From Lactiplantibacillus plantarum (GTDB taxonomy: Bacteria > Bacillota > Bacilli > Lactobacillales > Lactobacillaceae): a stretch of 64,000 nucleotides of DNA. The stretch is from positions 3,162,001-3,226,000 of the forward strand of contig NZ_CP039121.1 in NCBI RefSeq assembly GCF_014131735.1, read 5' to 3'. Under the pieces are notes generated by a model. It was given only the letters and a program-made list of their open reading frames with translations, was not told the origin of the DNA and searched no databases. Both the position numbers and the translations under genes were made by a program. This document shows positions 2,075 through 31,976 of this stretch, one piece after another (the first letter of the stretch is position 1; every line of letters begins with the position of its first letter).

Positions 2075-3409
2075 ATGAATGATTTATTTGAGAAGGCCCC
2101 GATTCCCAAAGCGTATTTCCATTTAGCCTTTCCTGTGGTTCTTGGCATGGTTGCCAGCATGATTTATAACTTAGCAGATACATTTTTTGTTGCTCAAACT
2201 GGTAATGCTGATTTAGTTGCTGGTATTGCCCTCGGCAGTCCGCTATTTTCGTTTATGTTAGCAGTTGGTGATATTTTTGGCCTCGGTGGGAGTGCCGTTA
2301 TTTCAAGAGTCCTTGGCCGTCATGATTATCACCAAAGTGCACGTATCAGTAGCTTTTGTTTTTACATTGCGATCGCGCTTAGCTTAGTACTGACAGCCTT
2401 ATTATTACTATTCGAACAACCAATTTTAGGCTTGCTAGGTGCTACTGCAGCTACCCGTCCCTACATTGCGGACTTCTATCGTATATTGGTATTAGGATCA
2501 ACCTTTATCATCGTTTCACTGGTTCCCGGTAACATTATCCGAACGGAGGGCCTGGCACAACTTTCCATGATTGCGACCATCAGTGGGACGGTTCTGACCA
2601 TTATTCTCGATCCCTTATTCTTATTTGGCTTTCACTGGGGTGCTTCGGGCGTTGCTTTTGCCAACGTTTTGGGGTACGCGGTCAACACCAGTCTGTTAGT
2701 CTTTTTTATGCGCCGAGCCAAAACGCTTTCCTTAGCACCAAAGTTAGCCCATATCTCGCGACCGACCCTTAAAGCCGTTGTCGCAGTTGGAATCCCAGCC
2801 TCACTGACTAACCTAACCCAGAGTTTTGGCATGATGATCTTAAACAGCTACTTAGCCGCATACGGCGCCCAAGCCGTGGCGGCCATGGGAATCGTTCAAA
2901 AAGTTTACATGGTCGTTATGATGGTCATGGTCGGCTTTGCTTTTGGGGCCCAGCCTTTAGTTGGTTACACGTACGGTGCTAAAAATTGGCAAAGACTACG
3001 GGCAACGTTGCGCTTCGATTTAAAAGTCGAGGGTGGCTACGCAACCATTTGTGCGATTATTCTAATGATTTTTGCGCCTCAACTTATTAAACTATTTATG
3101 AATCAACCAGCCATTGTCACTATGGGTACACAGATGTTGCGAGCGATGTTGATTACGACACCATTAGTGGGTTTCATCCTCGTGTTCACGACCGTCTTTC
3201 AATCAGTCGGTGCGGGTTTGAGTGCCCTAGCCATGGCTCTTTCGCGGCAAGCAATCTTACTAGGTATCGCCATCGTTATTCTGGCACAGTTCTTTGGACT
3301 AACTGGTATTATTTGGGCTCAAGCGGTCGCTGATGTCTTAACGTGCTTACTTGGCTGGTTACTTTATCGGCACACCTTCAAAGATATTCAAGTGCCATCC
3401 TCAAATTAA
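2075..3409 (+). CDS. MATE family multidrug exporter
   Basis: The 444-residue product has about twelve hydrophobic segments and the two-bundle layout of MATE (MOP superfamily) cation-coupled drug exporters. The beginning reads LFEKAPIPKAYFHLAFPVVL and the segment MIYNLADTFFVAQTG is characteristic of the MepA/DinF side of the family. It would export organic cations or metabolites across the cytoplasmic membrane. An AGAAGGAG ribosome binding site lies upstream and the gene has its own promoter and a terminator shared with the convergent arsR gene. The substrate cannot be told from sequence. Confidence 0.88.
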   Translation: MNDLFEKAPIPKAYFHLAFPVVLGMVASMIYNLADTFFVAQTGNADLVAGIALGSPLFSFMLAVGDIFGLGGSAVISRVLGRHDYHQSARISSFCFYIAIALSLVLTALLLLFEQPILGLLGATAATRPYIADFYRILVLGSTFIIVSLVPGNIIRTEGLAQLSMIATISGTVLTIILDPLFLFGFHWGASGVAFANVLGYAVNTSLLVFFMRRAKTLSLAPKLAHISRPTLKAVVAVGIPASLTNLTQSFGMMILNSYLAAYGAQAVAAMGIVQKVYMVVMMVMVGFAFGAQPLVGYTYGAKNWQRLRATLRFDLKVEGGYATICAIILMIFAPQLIKLFMNQPAIVTMGTQMLRAMLITTPLVGFILVFTTVFQSVGAGLSALAMALSRQAILLGIAIVILAQFFGLTGIIWAQAVADVLTCLLGWLLYRHTFKDIQVPSSN

Positions 3410-27711: not shown

Positions 27712-28176
27712 CTGCACTTCCTCCTAATCTTCATATAATTGTTAAGATTTTCACATATCTTGCCATTAACGGTTGTTTGCCGTTTTTCAATATCACCATA
27801 ACTTAATTTATAAGTCTGTCAATTTAAATTTAGTTGTAGTTGCTTGAGGTGTCGCAATAAAACCCGTTATATACAGCCTACAGGGACCTGTTTGCGATTA
27901 AAAATACCTGAAATTATCATAGCGACTAGTGCCTTTTATCGGACACTTTTATAAATAGAATTTATAAAAAGCTAAAATAAAGTTTGCCACTTGCTTAATT
28001 CTCACTAAAGTTTCGACAACCCGTCAAATTAATCACAGCTTGTTATCCTTGTCACAATAGCATTCTGTTGGCTTCGTTAAAATTAACGGTTGTTTTTTCT
28101 AGGTAACTATTTATATTGAAAGCGTAAACAATCCGTGTACTTATCCAACTAAAAAACTAATAAAGGAATGTTAATT
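27712..28176. promoter_or_regulatory. Divergent control region of transporter and reductase
   Basis: This AT-rich stretch of 465 bases holds no gene. TTTTATAAAT (27947-27956) and ATTTATAAAA (27960-27969) form a ten-base perfect dyad with a three-base gap that fits a LysR-type or similar regulator site. TGAAAGCGTAAACA (28117-28130) matches the CcpA cre consensus at 13 of 14 positions just upstream of the reductase gene. Confidence 0.65.
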
Positions 28177-30546
28177 ATGAAATATATTGCCTTGATTGGT
28201 ACGGCGGCACAACAGTCTTACAACCGTGAATTATTACAATTTATGAAGCATCATTTTAGTCAACGGGCTACCATTGACGTTAATGAAATTACAGGGATTC
28301 CCCTTTTTAATGAACCAACTCAAAATCATATCCCGGCGACCGTTCAAGCCTTAAATGATAAAATTAGCCAGGCCGATGGGGTGATCATCGGGGTACCCGA
28401 ATACGATCATGCCATTCCGGCCGCACTCAAGAACGTTATTGAATGGCTTTCTTACCAGCTCCACCCCTTTGCTAATAAACCGGTCATGTTAGTTGGTACT
28501 TCCCTTGGCGTACAGGGGACGTGCCGTGCTCAAGGTGACTTACGCAATATTCTCAATGCGCCCGGAGTTGATGCTCAGGTACTCCCTGGCAATGAATACA
28601 TGTTAAGCTACGCTGCTAAAGCCTTTGATCAGAATGGTCAAATGACCGATGCCCCTTCTATCAAGTTCTTGGAACGGTGCTTCGATAACTTTGAAAAATA
28701 CGTTAAGGCACTCAACGGCACGCCCGCGCTCAATGTGAACTGGCACGGTAACTACGACGTTATCGTTTTAGGCTTTGGTGGTGCCGGTGCTTCAGCGGCT
28801 CGTTTTGCTGCTGATAATGGTGCCCACGTACTAGTAGTTGATGCGGCACCATTTGGCCGTGAAGGTGGCAACACCCGCTACTCCGCCCAACACGTCGTTA
28901 CGGGTGAAAGCTTAGATAAACTAACCGCTTATTATCAAGCACTGGGCGCGCCATTCAGTACCCCTACTAAGACACTCAACGCCTATTTAAGCGGTATGAG
29001 TAAAATTCCAGCATATTTTGAAAAATATCTGGGGATTAAAGCCGTTAGTTGGAAACATGATATTAAACCCGGTGATGCCGTTGCCATCAAGAAAACCATG
29101 GCGGAATACCCAGAACTAGCCGGAAGTGATACGATTGACTTTGCCCTCGTTCACAAACGTGATAAAGACGCTGCATTATGGAAACTACTCCGGCAAAAAG
29201 TCCTTGAACGAGCTGACAATATTGACGTTTGGTTGGACTCACGGGCACAACATTTGATCCAAGATCCTAATACTAAAGTGATCCAAGGGGTCCAAATCAA
29301 ACGGGGCGAACGACTGCTTAATATCCATGCCAATAATGGCGTCGTTTTAGCTATGGGTGGTTTTGAAAACAATCCTGAGTTAAAGCAAACCTACTTGCAC
29401 AGTGATAATCTGACACCACTTGGGACGCTCTATAACCGCGGTGATGGTATCAAAATGGCTCAAGAAGTTGATGCCAAAATGTGGCACATGACCAATTATG
29501 AATCTCACGGTATCTTACCTGGAATCACCTTCAAAGAAGACGCCAATGAACGGGGCCGTCAAATTGAACACTGGCCTTTATTAAAGAACGGTAGTATTTT
29601 CGTTATCGCTGATGATGGGACACGCTACTTCCAAGAAGACGCTAAGCACCGTCACGGACACGTTTACACACATGGCTCTTGGCTAATCCCAATGAATAAT
29701 CAGCACCCCTACTTAATTTTTGATCAAACCCAGTACGATGCCTTCAAACAAGAAGAAAGTCAGGCTGGTCAGTTACCGTATCCGAAATTCATGACCAAAC
29801 TCGTTTCCGCGCCAACGATTGCACAATTGGCCGCCAAATTGGGAGTTCCTGCTAATAATCTACAACAGACGGTAACTGACTTTAATCACTACACAGAAGT
29901 GGGACGTGATTTTGAATTTGATCGTGATCCGCAAACGATGCGTCAACTGGACGATGGCCCTTACTATGCCATTGCTACGACCAATGACGTCCTCAACACG
30001 CAAGGGGGGCCACAACGCAATGAAAATGCCCAAATTCTCAACGTCAATGACGAACCTATTCCACACTTGTTCGGCGCTGGTGAATTAGGCGGTATCGTTG
30101 CAAACTGCTATCAAGGTGGTGGTAATTTAGCCGAATGTTTGATCTTTGGTAAGTTAGCCGGTGAAAACGCTGCTCGTCCAAAGGTAGATAGTGAATCTGT
30201 CACCGCCAACGAAGCCAACGGAATTAATGACCTTGTTGATGGCGAAACAGCATCTAATGTTAAACTGGCCGCTGATCAATATCTCGGCAGTTCTAATGCC
30301 GGGCTAGGTGGCAAAGTTATTGTGCGTGTGACTTACAACGACCATAAAATTCAAGCAGTCGATGTTATTCAACACCATGAAAGTGAAGATGTTGGTTTAA
30401 CCGCTATCGATCAAATTCCACAAGAAATTGTGGCAGCCAACTCCACTAGCGTTGACGCCGTTTCAGGTGCCTCTGCATCTAGCCGAGCTATTAAAGAAGC
30501 GGTCCAAAATGCGCTGAAACAAGTCAAAGATTCAGTCACGAATTAA
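28177..30546 (+). CDS. Three-domain flavoprotein reductase (FMN-reductase / FAD_binding_2 / FMN_bind)
   Basis: The 789-residue protein combines an N-terminal NADPH-dependent FMN reductase domain (about 1-175; VIIGVPEYDHAIPAALKN), a fumarate-reductase-type FAD domain (about 190-690; VIVLGFGGAGASAARFAADN, ending LFGAGELGGIVANCYQGGGN) and a C-terminal FMN_bind domain (about 710-789) with VDAVSGASASS, matching the ApbE flavinylation motif D-x-x-S-G-A-T/S at Ser766. Cytoplasmic NADH:fumarate, acrylate and cinnamate reductases have comparable domain sets. It probably reduces the double bond of fumarate or a related enoate for redox balance. AAAGGA favours ATG 28177 over 28168. No apbE gene is visible here. 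Confidence 0.88.
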   Translation: MKYIALIGTAAQQSYNRELLQFMKHHFSQRATIDVNEITGIPLFNEPTQNHIPATVQALNDKISQADGVIIGVPEYDHAIPAALKNVIEWLSYQLHPFANKPVMLVGTSLGVQGTCRAQGDLRNILNAPGVDAQVLPGNEYMLSYAAKAFDQNGQMTDAPSIKFLERCFDNFEKYVKALNGTPALNVNWHGNYDVIVLGFGGAGASAARFAADNGAHVLVVDAAPFGREGGNTRYSAQHVVTGESLDKLTAYYQALGAPFSTPTKTLNAYLSGMSKIPAYFEKYLGIKAVSWKHDIKPGDAVAIKKTMAEYPELAGSDTIDFALVHKRDKDAALWKLLRQKVLERADNIDVWLDSRAQHLIQDPNTKVIQGVQIKRGERLLNIHANNGVVLAMGGFENNPELKQTYLHSDNLTPLGTLYNRGDGIKMAQEVDAKMWHMTNYESHGILPGITFKEDANERGRQIEHWPLLKNGSIFVIADDGTRYFQEDAKHRHGHVYTHGSWLIPMNNQHPYLIFDQTQYDAFKQEESQAGQLPYPKFMTKLVSAPTIAQLAAKLGVPANNLQQTVTDFNHYTEVGRDFEFDRDPQTMRQLDDGPYYAIATTNDVLNTQGGPQRNENAQILNVNDEPIPHLFGAGELGGIVANCYQGGGNLAECLIFGKLAGENAARPKVDSESVTANEANGINDLVDGETASNVKLAADQYLGSSNAGLGGKVIVRVTYNDHKIQAVDVIQHHESEDVGLTAIDQIPQEIVAANSTSVDAVSGASASSRAIKEAVQNALKQVKDSVTN

Positions 30547-30575
30547 GCACAATTCAAAGCGAATATGTATTTGAG

Positions 30576-30610
30576 AACATCACGTAACTCACGAGTTGCG
30601 TGATGTTTTA
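30576..30610 (+). terminator. Terminator of the flavoprotein gene
   Basis: AACATCACG and CGTGATGTTTT, extended by an imperfect inner stem, lie about 30 bases after the stop codon. Confidence 0.75.
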
Positions 30611-30625
30611 GTGTCCCGTGGCGAA

Positions 30626-30641
30626 AGTTTCACGTGAAACA
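30626..30641. promoter_or_regulatory. parS: parS site 3 (one base off)
   Basis: AGTTTCACGTGAAACA contains the complete 14-base palindromic core GTTTCACGTGAAAC and differs from the other two sites only in its first base. Confidence 0.85.
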
Positions 30642-30712
30642 TTTTAGGACTTACGGTATTTGATTTCCAAATATAAGTTATGCAAGGTGCCTATCAAAAC
30701 AGACACCATCTA

Positions 30713-30741
30713 TTGCCAAAATCAACAACATCCGTTATACT
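30713..30741 (+). promoter_or_regulatory. Promoter of the FusB-like unit
   Basis: TTGCCA, a 17-base spacer and TATACT. Transcription should begin near 30748, giving a leader of about 145 bases before the FusB-like start. Confidence 0.8.
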
Positions 30742-30786
30742 GTTTATCGCTGTGGCTATAATCGGCCACAAATAAGGAGATGATTA

Positions 30787-30831
30787 ATGATGATGGCATC
30801 ATTATCTGTACGCAAAAGTGCTGCTCGTTAG
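30787..30831 (+). CDS. Leader peptide of the FusB-like gene, 14 aa
   Basis: A perfectly placed AAGGAG (30774-30779) and a seven-base spacer precede ATG-ATG-ATG, which opens the frame MMMASLSVRKSAAR and ends with TAG. The frame closes right before a set of mutually exclusive stems (see regulatory entry at 30814-30885). Length, position and strong translation signal fit a leader peptide of an antibiotic-type translational attenuator. The basic end RKSAAR is where a stalled ribosome would sit. Confidence 0.7.
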   Translation: MMMASLSVRKSAAR

Positions 30832-30885
30832 CGACACTTTTCGACAGAACCTTTCAGAGAAGTGTCTGGTTTGAATCTGAAAGGA
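30814..30885 (+). promoter_or_regulatory. Translational attenuator before the FusB-like gene
   Basis: Four segments can pair in two exclusive ways. OFF: AAAAGTG (30814-30820, inside the leader frame) with CACTTTT (30835-30841), and CCTTTCAGA (30850-30858) with TCTGAAAGG (30876-30884), which hides the Shine-Dalgarno AAAGGA of the main gene. ON: GACACTTTTC (30833-30842) with GAGAAGTGTC (30857-30866), ten pairs with one G-U, which breaks both OFF stems. A ribosome stalled near the end of the leader peptide covers the first segment and so favours ON. This is the logic of ermC-like attenuators. Confidence 0.7.
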
Positions 30886-30893
30886 ATTATATT

Positions 30894-31541
30894 ATGCAAC
30901 CGACAATTACCACCTATCAATACAGTTATATTACTCAGCAAGTCAATCAGTTAATTAGCGCCGAGCTCGCCGTAAACGATCTTCAAATTAGAGCCGTCGT
31001 ACGGGCACAAGCTATCGAGCGGATTACACCACTGCTTCCTAGTGACGATCCAATCACCGCTAATTTCTTGTCCCATTTGCAAACGGACCGGCTAACCCGT
31101 GCCAAGGCCCCTCAACTACTAGAAACGCTAATTCCGCTAATTATTCCGTTTCCATCCTTGACGACAAAGCAACTAAGCAAGTTGTTTCGCAAGGTCAAAA
31201 AGTTGAAGCAGCCTGTATGGTCACAATTAGCATTACACGAATTGACTTACCTAGGTTGGAATGATGGTGGTAACCAGAAAAAGTATTTAGTAATCCCGGA
31301 TCATGATCGTCTCATTGGTATCCAGGGAGATCTAGCACCACAAACAGTCAAGGGCGTCTGTGCCATTTGCCAAACAATTGGCAACGTCGCACTCTTTATG
31401 TCGACAACCAAGTCATCTGGTCTCGGACCTTACACGCGTAACGGCAATTACATTTGTCGTGACAGTAATCAGTGTAATCGACAATTGACCGACCCGCAGG
31501 CTTTAGCTGACTTTTTAGCAGTTGTCCGTCCAAAACGATAA
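30894..31541 (+). CDS. FusB/FusC-type EF-G-binding protein with treble-clef zinc domain
   Basis: The 215-residue protein has the two-part layout of FusB: an N-terminal helical bundle and a C-terminal zinc-binding domain with VCAICQTIGNVALFM, followed by GLGPYTRNGNYICRDSNQCN; the cysteines form the C-x2-C...C-x5-C set. FusB-type proteins bind EF-G and free ribosomes stalled by fusidic acid. AAAGGA is correctly spaced for ATG 30894 and is also the element hidden by the attenuator. The open frame continues 38 codons upstream, but that part overlaps the leader and has no start signal. The substrate could be an intrinsic EF-G rescue role and not drug resistance. Confidence 0.85.
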   Translation: MQPTITTYQYSYITQQVNQLISAELAVNDLQIRAVVRAQAIERITPLLPSDDPITANFLSHLQTDRLTRAKAPQLLETLIPLIIPFPSLTTKQLSKLFRKVKKLKQPVWSQLALHELTYLGWNDGGNQKKYLVIPDHDRLIGIQGDLAPQTVKGVCAICQTIGNVALFMSTTKSSGLGPYTRNGNYICRDSNQCNRQLTDPQALADFLAVVRPKR

Positions 31542-31555
31542 TTAAATAAAAATCA

Positions 31556-31597
31556 GGGCCACCAAGAACAGCTGCAACTGTCGTTCTTGGTGGCCCC
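31556..31597. terminator. Bidirectional terminator
   Basis: GGGCCACCAAGAAC (31556-31569) and GTTCTTGGTGGCCC (31583-31596) pair perfectly between convergent genes. Confidence 0.88.
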
Positions 31598-31607
31598 TTC
31601 ATTAATC

Positions 31608-31976
31608 TTATTCGGTGACACTAATACAATAAGCGCGTGTTGGCGAATCACTAACTTCAATTCGCAACAGTTGCGCCCCGTTGTCTCGCAATGTCTTATC
31701 AATCTTGGTAAACAAATACTCCGTGACATTTTCCACAGTTGGATTAACGGTTTTAAATTCAGGTAAGTCGTTCAAAAATTTACCTGACAATTCATCCAAC
31801 GCTTGATGCAAATTTTTTTCAATATCATAAAAAGCAACCATCGCATCAACCGTGTGCAATTCACAAACAATTTCCCACGTGTGCGTGTGCTTTTTTCCGG
31901 AGCCAGTTGCCCACCGCACCGCATGGCTAGCGTTGACATAGGACTTAATTTTGTACGTTCGTTGTTTAGTCGTCAT
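31608..31976 (-). CDS. 6-pyruvoyl-tetrahydropterin synthase / QueD-like paralogue
   Basis: The 122-residue protein has the T-fold of PTPS/QueD: His18 in YVNASHAVRW and the pair His33/His35 in KKHTHTWEIV would bind zinc as usual. The catalytic Cys expected a few residues before the H-x-H motif in QueD and PTPS (C-x3-HGH) is missing, replaced by GSGKK. A QueD function for queuosine is therefore uncertain; it may be an unstudied paralogue. No other queuosine gene is adjacent. Confidence 0.75.
   Translation of the reverse strand: MTTKQRTYKIKSYVNASHAVRWATGSGKKHTHTWEIVCELHTVDAMVAFYDIEKNLHQALDELSGKFLNDLPEFKTVNPTVENVTEYLFTKIDKTLRDNGAQLLRIEVSDSPTRAYCISVTE

Follow-up and report, generated by a model that had tools for sequence, protein, structure and literature searches.

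O'Neill and Chopra are said to have described in 2006 (Mol. Microbiol.) the translational attenuator of fusB on the staphylococcal plasmid pUB101. In the accessible parts of three publications, translational attenuation of this gene is linked to fusidic acid (PMC12008383, PMC12493156, PMC3352095), and induction of FusB is attributed to fusidic-acid-stalled ribosomes on the leader (PMC12008383, PMC12493156). Leader control of staphylococcal fusB, which the earlier note on this DNA had cited as background, is therefore in print. A 2025 review states, in the portion available, that the regulation of FusB homologues is unknown (PMC12493156). Here we analyzed the leader of a FusB-type gene in a 64,000-nucleotide stretch of the Lactiplantibacillus plantarum contig NZ_CP039121.1 (the window). 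This leader is very probably an ermC-like translational attenuator, a prediction made in silico. Its support comes from base pairing, from scanning ribosome positions with ermC as a control, and from shuffled sequences, from conservation at 13/13 loci of the genus, and from complementarity of the arms across 27 leader types.

The gene encodes a predicted EF-G-binding N domain and a C-terminal treble-clef zinc finger (Pfam PF07299, 4.7e-25, and PF16571, 7.2e-9), and the protein aligns over nearly its full length to the solved chains of FusC (2yb5, 2.9e-36) and FusB (4adn, 4.4e-36). Four zinc-type cysteines (C156, C159, C188, and C194) were invariant in an alignment of 12 proteins. The NCBIfam exception models for FusB, FusC, FusD, and FusF all scored below their cut-offs, with fusF at 159 bits against 435 and the other three lower. 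Because the scores lie so far below these cut-offs, the product is a relative and not one of the named resistance proteins. An L. plantarum homologue is listed in PMC3352095 among nine sequences that either have evidence linking them to fusidic acid resistance or come from inherently resistant species. Gene callers that take the leftmost start would produce a 253-aa protein (30780-31541) that spans the leader. Leftmost-start annotation was also seen on the Enterococcus raffinosus plasmid pCX012922 (our locus L116), which is annotated from 382 and for which we place the start at 544.

The elements upstream of the gene are listed in Table 1. The promoter claimed in the earlier note is present, and its -35 TTG and TATACT were identical across 13/13 genus loci. 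By itself the promoter match says little, because 1.2 kb holds seven promoter-like sites against a shuffle mean of 2.3. The leader Shine-Dalgarno and reading frame were also as described, and the AGGAG part was invariant or at least 90% kept in the group A alignment (A1; group A being the window's type). The proposed leader length of 14 residues is probably one too many. Only 4/32 group A copies have an ATG at the position of the first one (30787), and most of the rest have ACG there, which makes the ATG at 30790 the likelier start and gives 13 residues.

Table 1 Features of the predicted attenuator and its gene, in window coordinates.
Feature	Position	Strand	Remark
Sigma-70-type promoter TTGCCA-17-TATACT	30713..30741	+	10/12 consensus match
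Hairpin near mRNA 5' end, UGUGGCU-AUAAUC-GGCCACA, directly 5' of leader Shine-Dalgarno	30751..30770	+	
Leader Shine-Dalgarno AAGGAG	30774..30779	+	
Start-codon hairpin ("helix 0"), AAUGAUG-AUGG-CAUCAUU, over leader ATG	30786..30803	+	
Leader ORF MMASLSVRKSAAR, 13 residues, stop TAG	30790..30831	+	Start at 30787 adds one M
Arm 1, leader codons K-S, 5' arm of OFF1	30814..30820	+	
Arm 2, right after leader stop; partner is arm 1 (OFF1) or 30857-30866 (ON)	30833..30842	+	
Arm 3a, anti-Shine-Dalgarno arm, OFF2	30850..30858	+	
Arm 3b, partner of arm 2 in ON fold	30857..30866	+	
Arm 4, contains FusB-gene Shine-Dalgarno GAAAGG (30879-30884)	30876..30884	+	
FusB-type EF-G-binding protein gene, 215 aa	30894..31541	+	Pfam and structure matches

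The four complementary segments pair as the earlier note had proposed. Arm 1 pairs with 30835-30841 (OFF1, 7/7 pairs), arm 3a with arm 4 (OFF2, 9/9 pairs), and arm 2 with arm 3b (ON, 10/10 pairs, one of them G-U). The claim that the two folds are exclusive stands in full for OFF1, since the ON helix consumes all seven bases of 30835-30841. It stands only in part for OFF2, which shares just two bases with ON (30857-30858) and is excluded mainly by helix crossing; for this reason nested folding leaves room for a pseudoknot. The seven anti-Shine-Dalgarno pairs outside the overlap have a duplex energy of -7.1 kcal/mol and could, by this estimate, survive beside ON as a pseudoknot. The usual pseudoknot penalty is about 9 kcal/mol, and the estimate leaves about -2 kcal/mol for these seven pairs. 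A search of 30540-31600 against Rfam 15 gave no family match up to an E value of 5.

Folded without constraints, 30748-30930 took the OFF fold as its minimum free energy structure (z -2.86), and 3/200 shuffles were as stable. In the ribosome-position scan, everything up to the leading edge of the ribosome was hidden and the cost of opening the FusB-gene Shine-Dalgarno was computed from nested folds only. This cost was 5.6 kcal/mol with the whole leader present, 1.7-2.0 kcal/mol with the edge at 30816-30834, and 4.6-5.8 kcal/mol with the edge at 30837-30849, where the ribosome has reached the final codons or the leader stop. Because the cost falls and then returns, only a stall in the body of the leader is predicted to open the gene. 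None of 60 dinucleotide shuffles matched this OFF-ON-OFF contrast in the window copy. As a control for the method, the pE194 ermC leader gave 3.7, then 0.6-1.2 (codons 9-16), then 3.9 kcal/mol. The known stall codon in ermC is codon 9, which is the first codon of its computed inducing range.

The edge positions that open the gene correspond to P-site codons L, S, V, R, K, and S, and a codon-wise scan places the inducing range at S4 to A11 (codons 4-11, or 8/13 leader codons). A stall near RKSAAR had been proposed as the trigger; its R, K, S, and first A fall inside this range, and stalling on either of the final two codons does not open the gene. The leader ORF was present in 32/32 group A copies, with 12, 13, or 15 codons and a TAG or TAA stop. 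Among the 13-codon leaders Arg is replaced by Gln or Lys, Lys by Met, and the last residue is C, S, or R. Nine of the 25 possible single-step synonymous codon changes were seen, as were 16 of the 83 non-synonymous ones, a ratio equal to that of the first codons of the FusB-type gene. A stall independent of position fits such a wide inducing range and so loosely kept a peptide better than does a drug that requires one exact nascent peptide. A motif, [AVISGN][ST][LYSC][LIFSV][VIKRAS], occurred in 13/31 leader types, compared to 1.5 on average over 5000 shuffles, with the pattern picked after the leaders had been viewed. We do not claim it as a stall peptide for that reason, and the start-codon hairpin may explain the first residues.

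From these results we propose the following mechanism, of which the switching steps are computed. In free mRNA, arm 3a would hide the FusB-gene Shine-Dalgarno (OFF). Stalling of a ribosome midway along the leader would cover arm 1 and leave arm 2 free, and the freed arm 2 would pair with arm 3b (ON), opening the Shine-Dalgarno. At the leader stop a ribosome would cover arm 2 itself, so that normal leader translation would leave the gene OFF. The natural inducer would be an EF-G-blocked ribosome, caught either by fusidic acid, the inducer of pUB101 fusB, or by another translocation block, and the product would free EF-G and thereby close a feedback loop. In several relatives the free mRNA is scarcely OFF at equilibrium, with opening costs of 0.1 (L026), 1.1 (L022 and L044), and 1.2 kcal/mol (L005); kinetic folding or terminating ribosomes may keep these closed.

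The FusB-type gene was present in 13/21 genomes of the genus Lactiplantibacillus, and the element was kept at 13/13 of these loci. Across the family, 55/397 sampled genomes had a gene match, and the upstream region was read at 52 loci (of the other three matches, two fell under the cut-off and one was a fragment). A leader-like ORF was found at 48/52 Lactobacillaceae loci, comprising 32 of group A, nine of group B, four of group C, two reaching the gene, and L060; no leader was seen at the remaining four (L049, L061, L064, and L065). Judged by the named loci, group A consists of Lactiplantibacillus, Levilactobacillus, and Secundilactobacillus oryzae. Group B leaders begin M[IV]RxVS and have arms unlike those of group A. 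A group A covariance model matched 22/301 family genomes, once each and always directly before a FusB-type gene; because all 22 matches are copies used to build the model, this search adds only the absence of other copies. In the class, 158/398 genomes had a gene match. Among the 49 class loci inspected, one of them without an assigned start, leaders of the same kind were found in Enterococcus-like and Staphylococcus-like loci and none in the Bacillus-like loci L066-L075.

A different conserved element lies upstream of the Bacillales FusB-type genes at L080, L084, L091, L092, and L100. It has an ORF of about 30 codons in L080, L084, L091, and L092, with arms like CATGCAAAG / CTTTGCATG and GGCGAT / ATCGCC. 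The scan showed no opening of the Shine-Dalgarno at L080, L084, L094, or L100 and a narrow one at L091 (0.5 kcal/mol at codon 10, 7.7 kcal/mol at the end), and the elements of L080, L084, L091, and L100 had no Rfam match at the gathering score. Near the FusB-type gene of L084 there is a BsrG-type RNA (2841-3092, minus strand); RNAs of this type are part of a type I toxin-antitoxin pair. On a Priestia megaterium plasmid (L118, 1-1182), the FusB-type gene lies directly downstream of a co-directional macrolide-family glycosyltransferase gene, and no leader was seen. The Listeria monocytogenes "plasmid" record NZ_CP030101.1 (L119) has 2,899,513 bases and is almost certainly a mislabelled chromosome.

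Shuffled controls were also applied beyond the window. Eleven leaders were each compared to 60 of their own dinucleotide shuffles. The native late rise was never reached in ten of them and was reached by one shuffle in L051; with a stricter measure, no shuffle matched the native value in ten leaders and 2/60 did in L042. We then counted loci with a rise of at least 2 kcal/mol. Such a rise was found in 51/71 named loci compared to 25/426 shuffles and, outside group A, in 22/39 loci compared to 17/234 shuffles. By group it was seen in 29/32 of group A and 9/9 of group B. These 71 were scanned first out of 80 named loci; L163 and L189 were scanned later and also passed (4.3 and 2.1 kcal/mol), and L179, L183, L199, L201, L202, L203, and L207 were left unscanned. 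A rise of this size was lacking in 20/71 named loci, namely three of group A, three Weissella, both Mammaliicoccus, one Tetragenococcus, and eleven Enterococcus. Since 17 loci outside group A fail, either the design is common yet not universal, or a scan of nested folds misses some cases. Group C (L053, L054, and L058, with the Weissella loci L176, L177, and L181) gave no pass. L048 has a rise of 2.7 kcal/mol, yet opening its Shine-Dalgarno never costs less than 5.6 kcal/mol, and the scan hardly applies to L059 and L063 because their leader-like ORF reaches or overlaps the gene start. Weissella L176, L177, and L181, together with L053 and L054, share a well-conserved leader (MPVFGS[LF]SV...) without a computed switch; their arms may lie elsewhere, or regulation may be of another kind.

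Within group A (32 copies, 30 distinct), 98.6% of cells were paired for OFF1, 99.7% for ON, and 99.6% for OFF2, and most invariant columns fell in the arms. There were no compensatory pairs in any of the three helices. The copies are too alike, so that group A shows conservation alone, and evidence was sought in other lineages. Group B has two double-changed pairs in OFF1 and two in ON; 14 and 35 of 500 shuffles, respectively, did as well. In L046 of this group, one position of arms 1, 2, and 3 carries matching changes together (columns 42, 70, and 99).

An alignment-free swap test compared the pairing of each region with its own partner to its pairing with the partners of other types, using 27 leader types and 5000 permutations. 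The types came from lactobacilli, enterococci, Listeria, and staphylococci, including pUB101 fusB, and types that fail the scan were kept in. Own pairing was stronger for OFF1 (leader with arm 2, -10.2 against -6.1 kcal/mol when swapped), ON (arm 2 with arm 3, -13.8 against -7.3), and OFF2 (arm 3 with Shine-Dalgarno, -8.0 against -6.5), with 0/5000 permutations in each case. Pairings unused by the model gave no signal (leader with arm 3, 1099/5000; arm 2 with Shine-Dalgarno, 1670/5000). Own pairing exceeded the median swap in 20 (OFF1), 26 (ON), and 19 (OFF2) of the 27 types. Tallies over loci and types in this analysis are not fully independent, because the two locus sets overlap in species and some of the 27 types are related. 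Arm pairing is thus retained despite sequence change, both across lineages and in group B. The covariation looked for in related species therefore appeared as lineage-specific complementarity among the 27 types and not as compensatory change inside group A.

Two further hairpins accompany the switch. The 5' hairpin was predicted in 31/32 group A copies at -3.1 to -12.8 kcal/mol with varying sequence, and its swap test gave 0/5000 (18 copies). The start-codon hairpin had 91.8% of cells paired and two pairs changed on both sides. It also forms over unrelated leaders (mean z -1.65 for 31 types, 21 of them at or below -1), and its swap test gave 0/5000 compared to 4533/5000 for a control region (27 types). 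The two hairpins probably adjust how long the mRNA lasts and how often the leader is initiated, and the one over the start codon may underlie the recurrent Ala/Val/Ser/Ile-Ser/Thr pair near the start of unrelated leaders.

Several other readings of the region were weighed. The leader could be a general sensor of translation stress, responding to a wide set of ribosome inhibitors or to slow elongation of any kind and not specially to fusidic acid. We hold this at a little below an even chance: the broad inducing range and the weak constraint on the peptide agree with it, as does the precedent of toiL in E. coli (the available portion of PMC12121999), but the group A model finds no copy elsewhere in the 301 family genomes. 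A switch found only before the gene for an EF-G-binding protein suggests that the signal is linked to EF-G. An amino acid shortage, which the Arg, Lys, and Ser codons within the inducing range might report, is an improbable signal, given that the leader has no single-residue run, that Arg, Lys, and the last residue vary among the 13-codon leaders, and that other lineages have different residues at those positions.

Three readings in which the leader would not control translation were also considered. The stable nine-pair OFF2 stem just upstream of the gene might act as a transcription terminator, but no U run follows it (AAUUAUAUUAUG), a terminator scan finds none there, and arm 4 is the Shine-Dalgarno itself, so we consider a transcription attenuator very unlikely. 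We think it just as unlikely that the gene is constitutive and its leader structured by chance; the low equilibrium OFF energies of some relatives would fit, whereas the shuffle and swap-test results and the concentration of invariant group A columns in the arms speak against it. Least probable of all is a 253-aa protein begun at ATG 30780, with the "leader" as coding sequence. Although that frame is open through 31541, AAGGAG abuts the ATG with no gap, and the alignments to the solved FusB and FusC chains begin at residue 3-5. Within group A the spacing between leader stop and gene start ranges over 60-69 in steps of single bases, and relatives therefore do not retain the fused frame.

Around the predicted attenuator, a long perfect hairpin (31556-31596, GGGCCACCAAGAAC ... 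GTTCTTGGTGGCCC) separates the FusB-type gene from the convergent next gene and, from its sequence, is probably a two-way terminator. That next gene (31608-31976) encodes a 6-pyruvoyl-tetrahydropterin-synthase-related protein (TIGR03112, 126.5 bits, over the cut-off) and adjoins genes for a nitroreductase and a uracil-DNA-glycosylase-family protein. At 28168-30546 is a 792-aa fusion of NADPH-dependent FMN reductase, FAD-binding (flavocytochrome-c-like), and FMN-binding domains.

The attenuator reading gives a testable answer on how the FusB-type gene is regulated in lactobacilli and, by extension, on many such genes in enterococci, Listeria, and staphylococci. If it is true, low-level fusidic acid tolerance can be inducible and would then be missed by uninduced tests, and the leader would offer a natural sensor for jammed EF-G. 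More tentatively, and with odds we would put at roughly one in three, the leaders of Lactobacillales, Listeria, and staphylococci may descend from a shared old five-helix stall sensor whose arms were repeatedly rewritten while the logic was kept, with a ribosome jammed at EF-G for whatever cause as its signal, EF-G rescue as its job, and fusidic acid resistance as a by-product. The start-codon hairpin would be a second layer of such a sensor, and we have seen no description of a layer of this kind.

Compared to known systems, the window's element is most like pUB101 fusB, which has a leader ORF, a stem hiding the Shine-Dalgarno before a FusB-type gene, a start-codon hairpin, and the same OFF-ON-OFF scan (rise 4.6 kcal/mol). 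The leader peptide of pUB101 (MLKDITYLKLLDLEYKMLCS) and its arm sequences differ from those of the window, and its gene is acquired and plasmid-borne while that of the window is chromosomal. With pE194 ermC the element shares the four-arm logic and the scan profile; it differs in the gene controlled and in that helix crossing is the main reason why ON and OFF2 are mutually exclusive. ermC requires a macrolide-dependent stall at codon 9. The toiL uORF of E. coli topAI is alike in that stalls at many positions expose a hidden ribosome-binding site, but it has another gene, another architecture, and an involvement of Rho, according to the part of PMC12121999 available. A leader peptide gene has likewise been recognized before fusB in the aj1-LP-fusB islands, which are acquired resistance islands of staphylococci (PMC12561750, in the portion available). 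Among the matches listed in a search of mainly open-access literature, no such leaders were described upstream of FusB-type genes in lactobacilli, enterococci, or Listeria. Attenuation of the fusB type is thus the known part; the new part is a well-supported lactobacillus member, with a breadth of the design across families of which we have seen no description.
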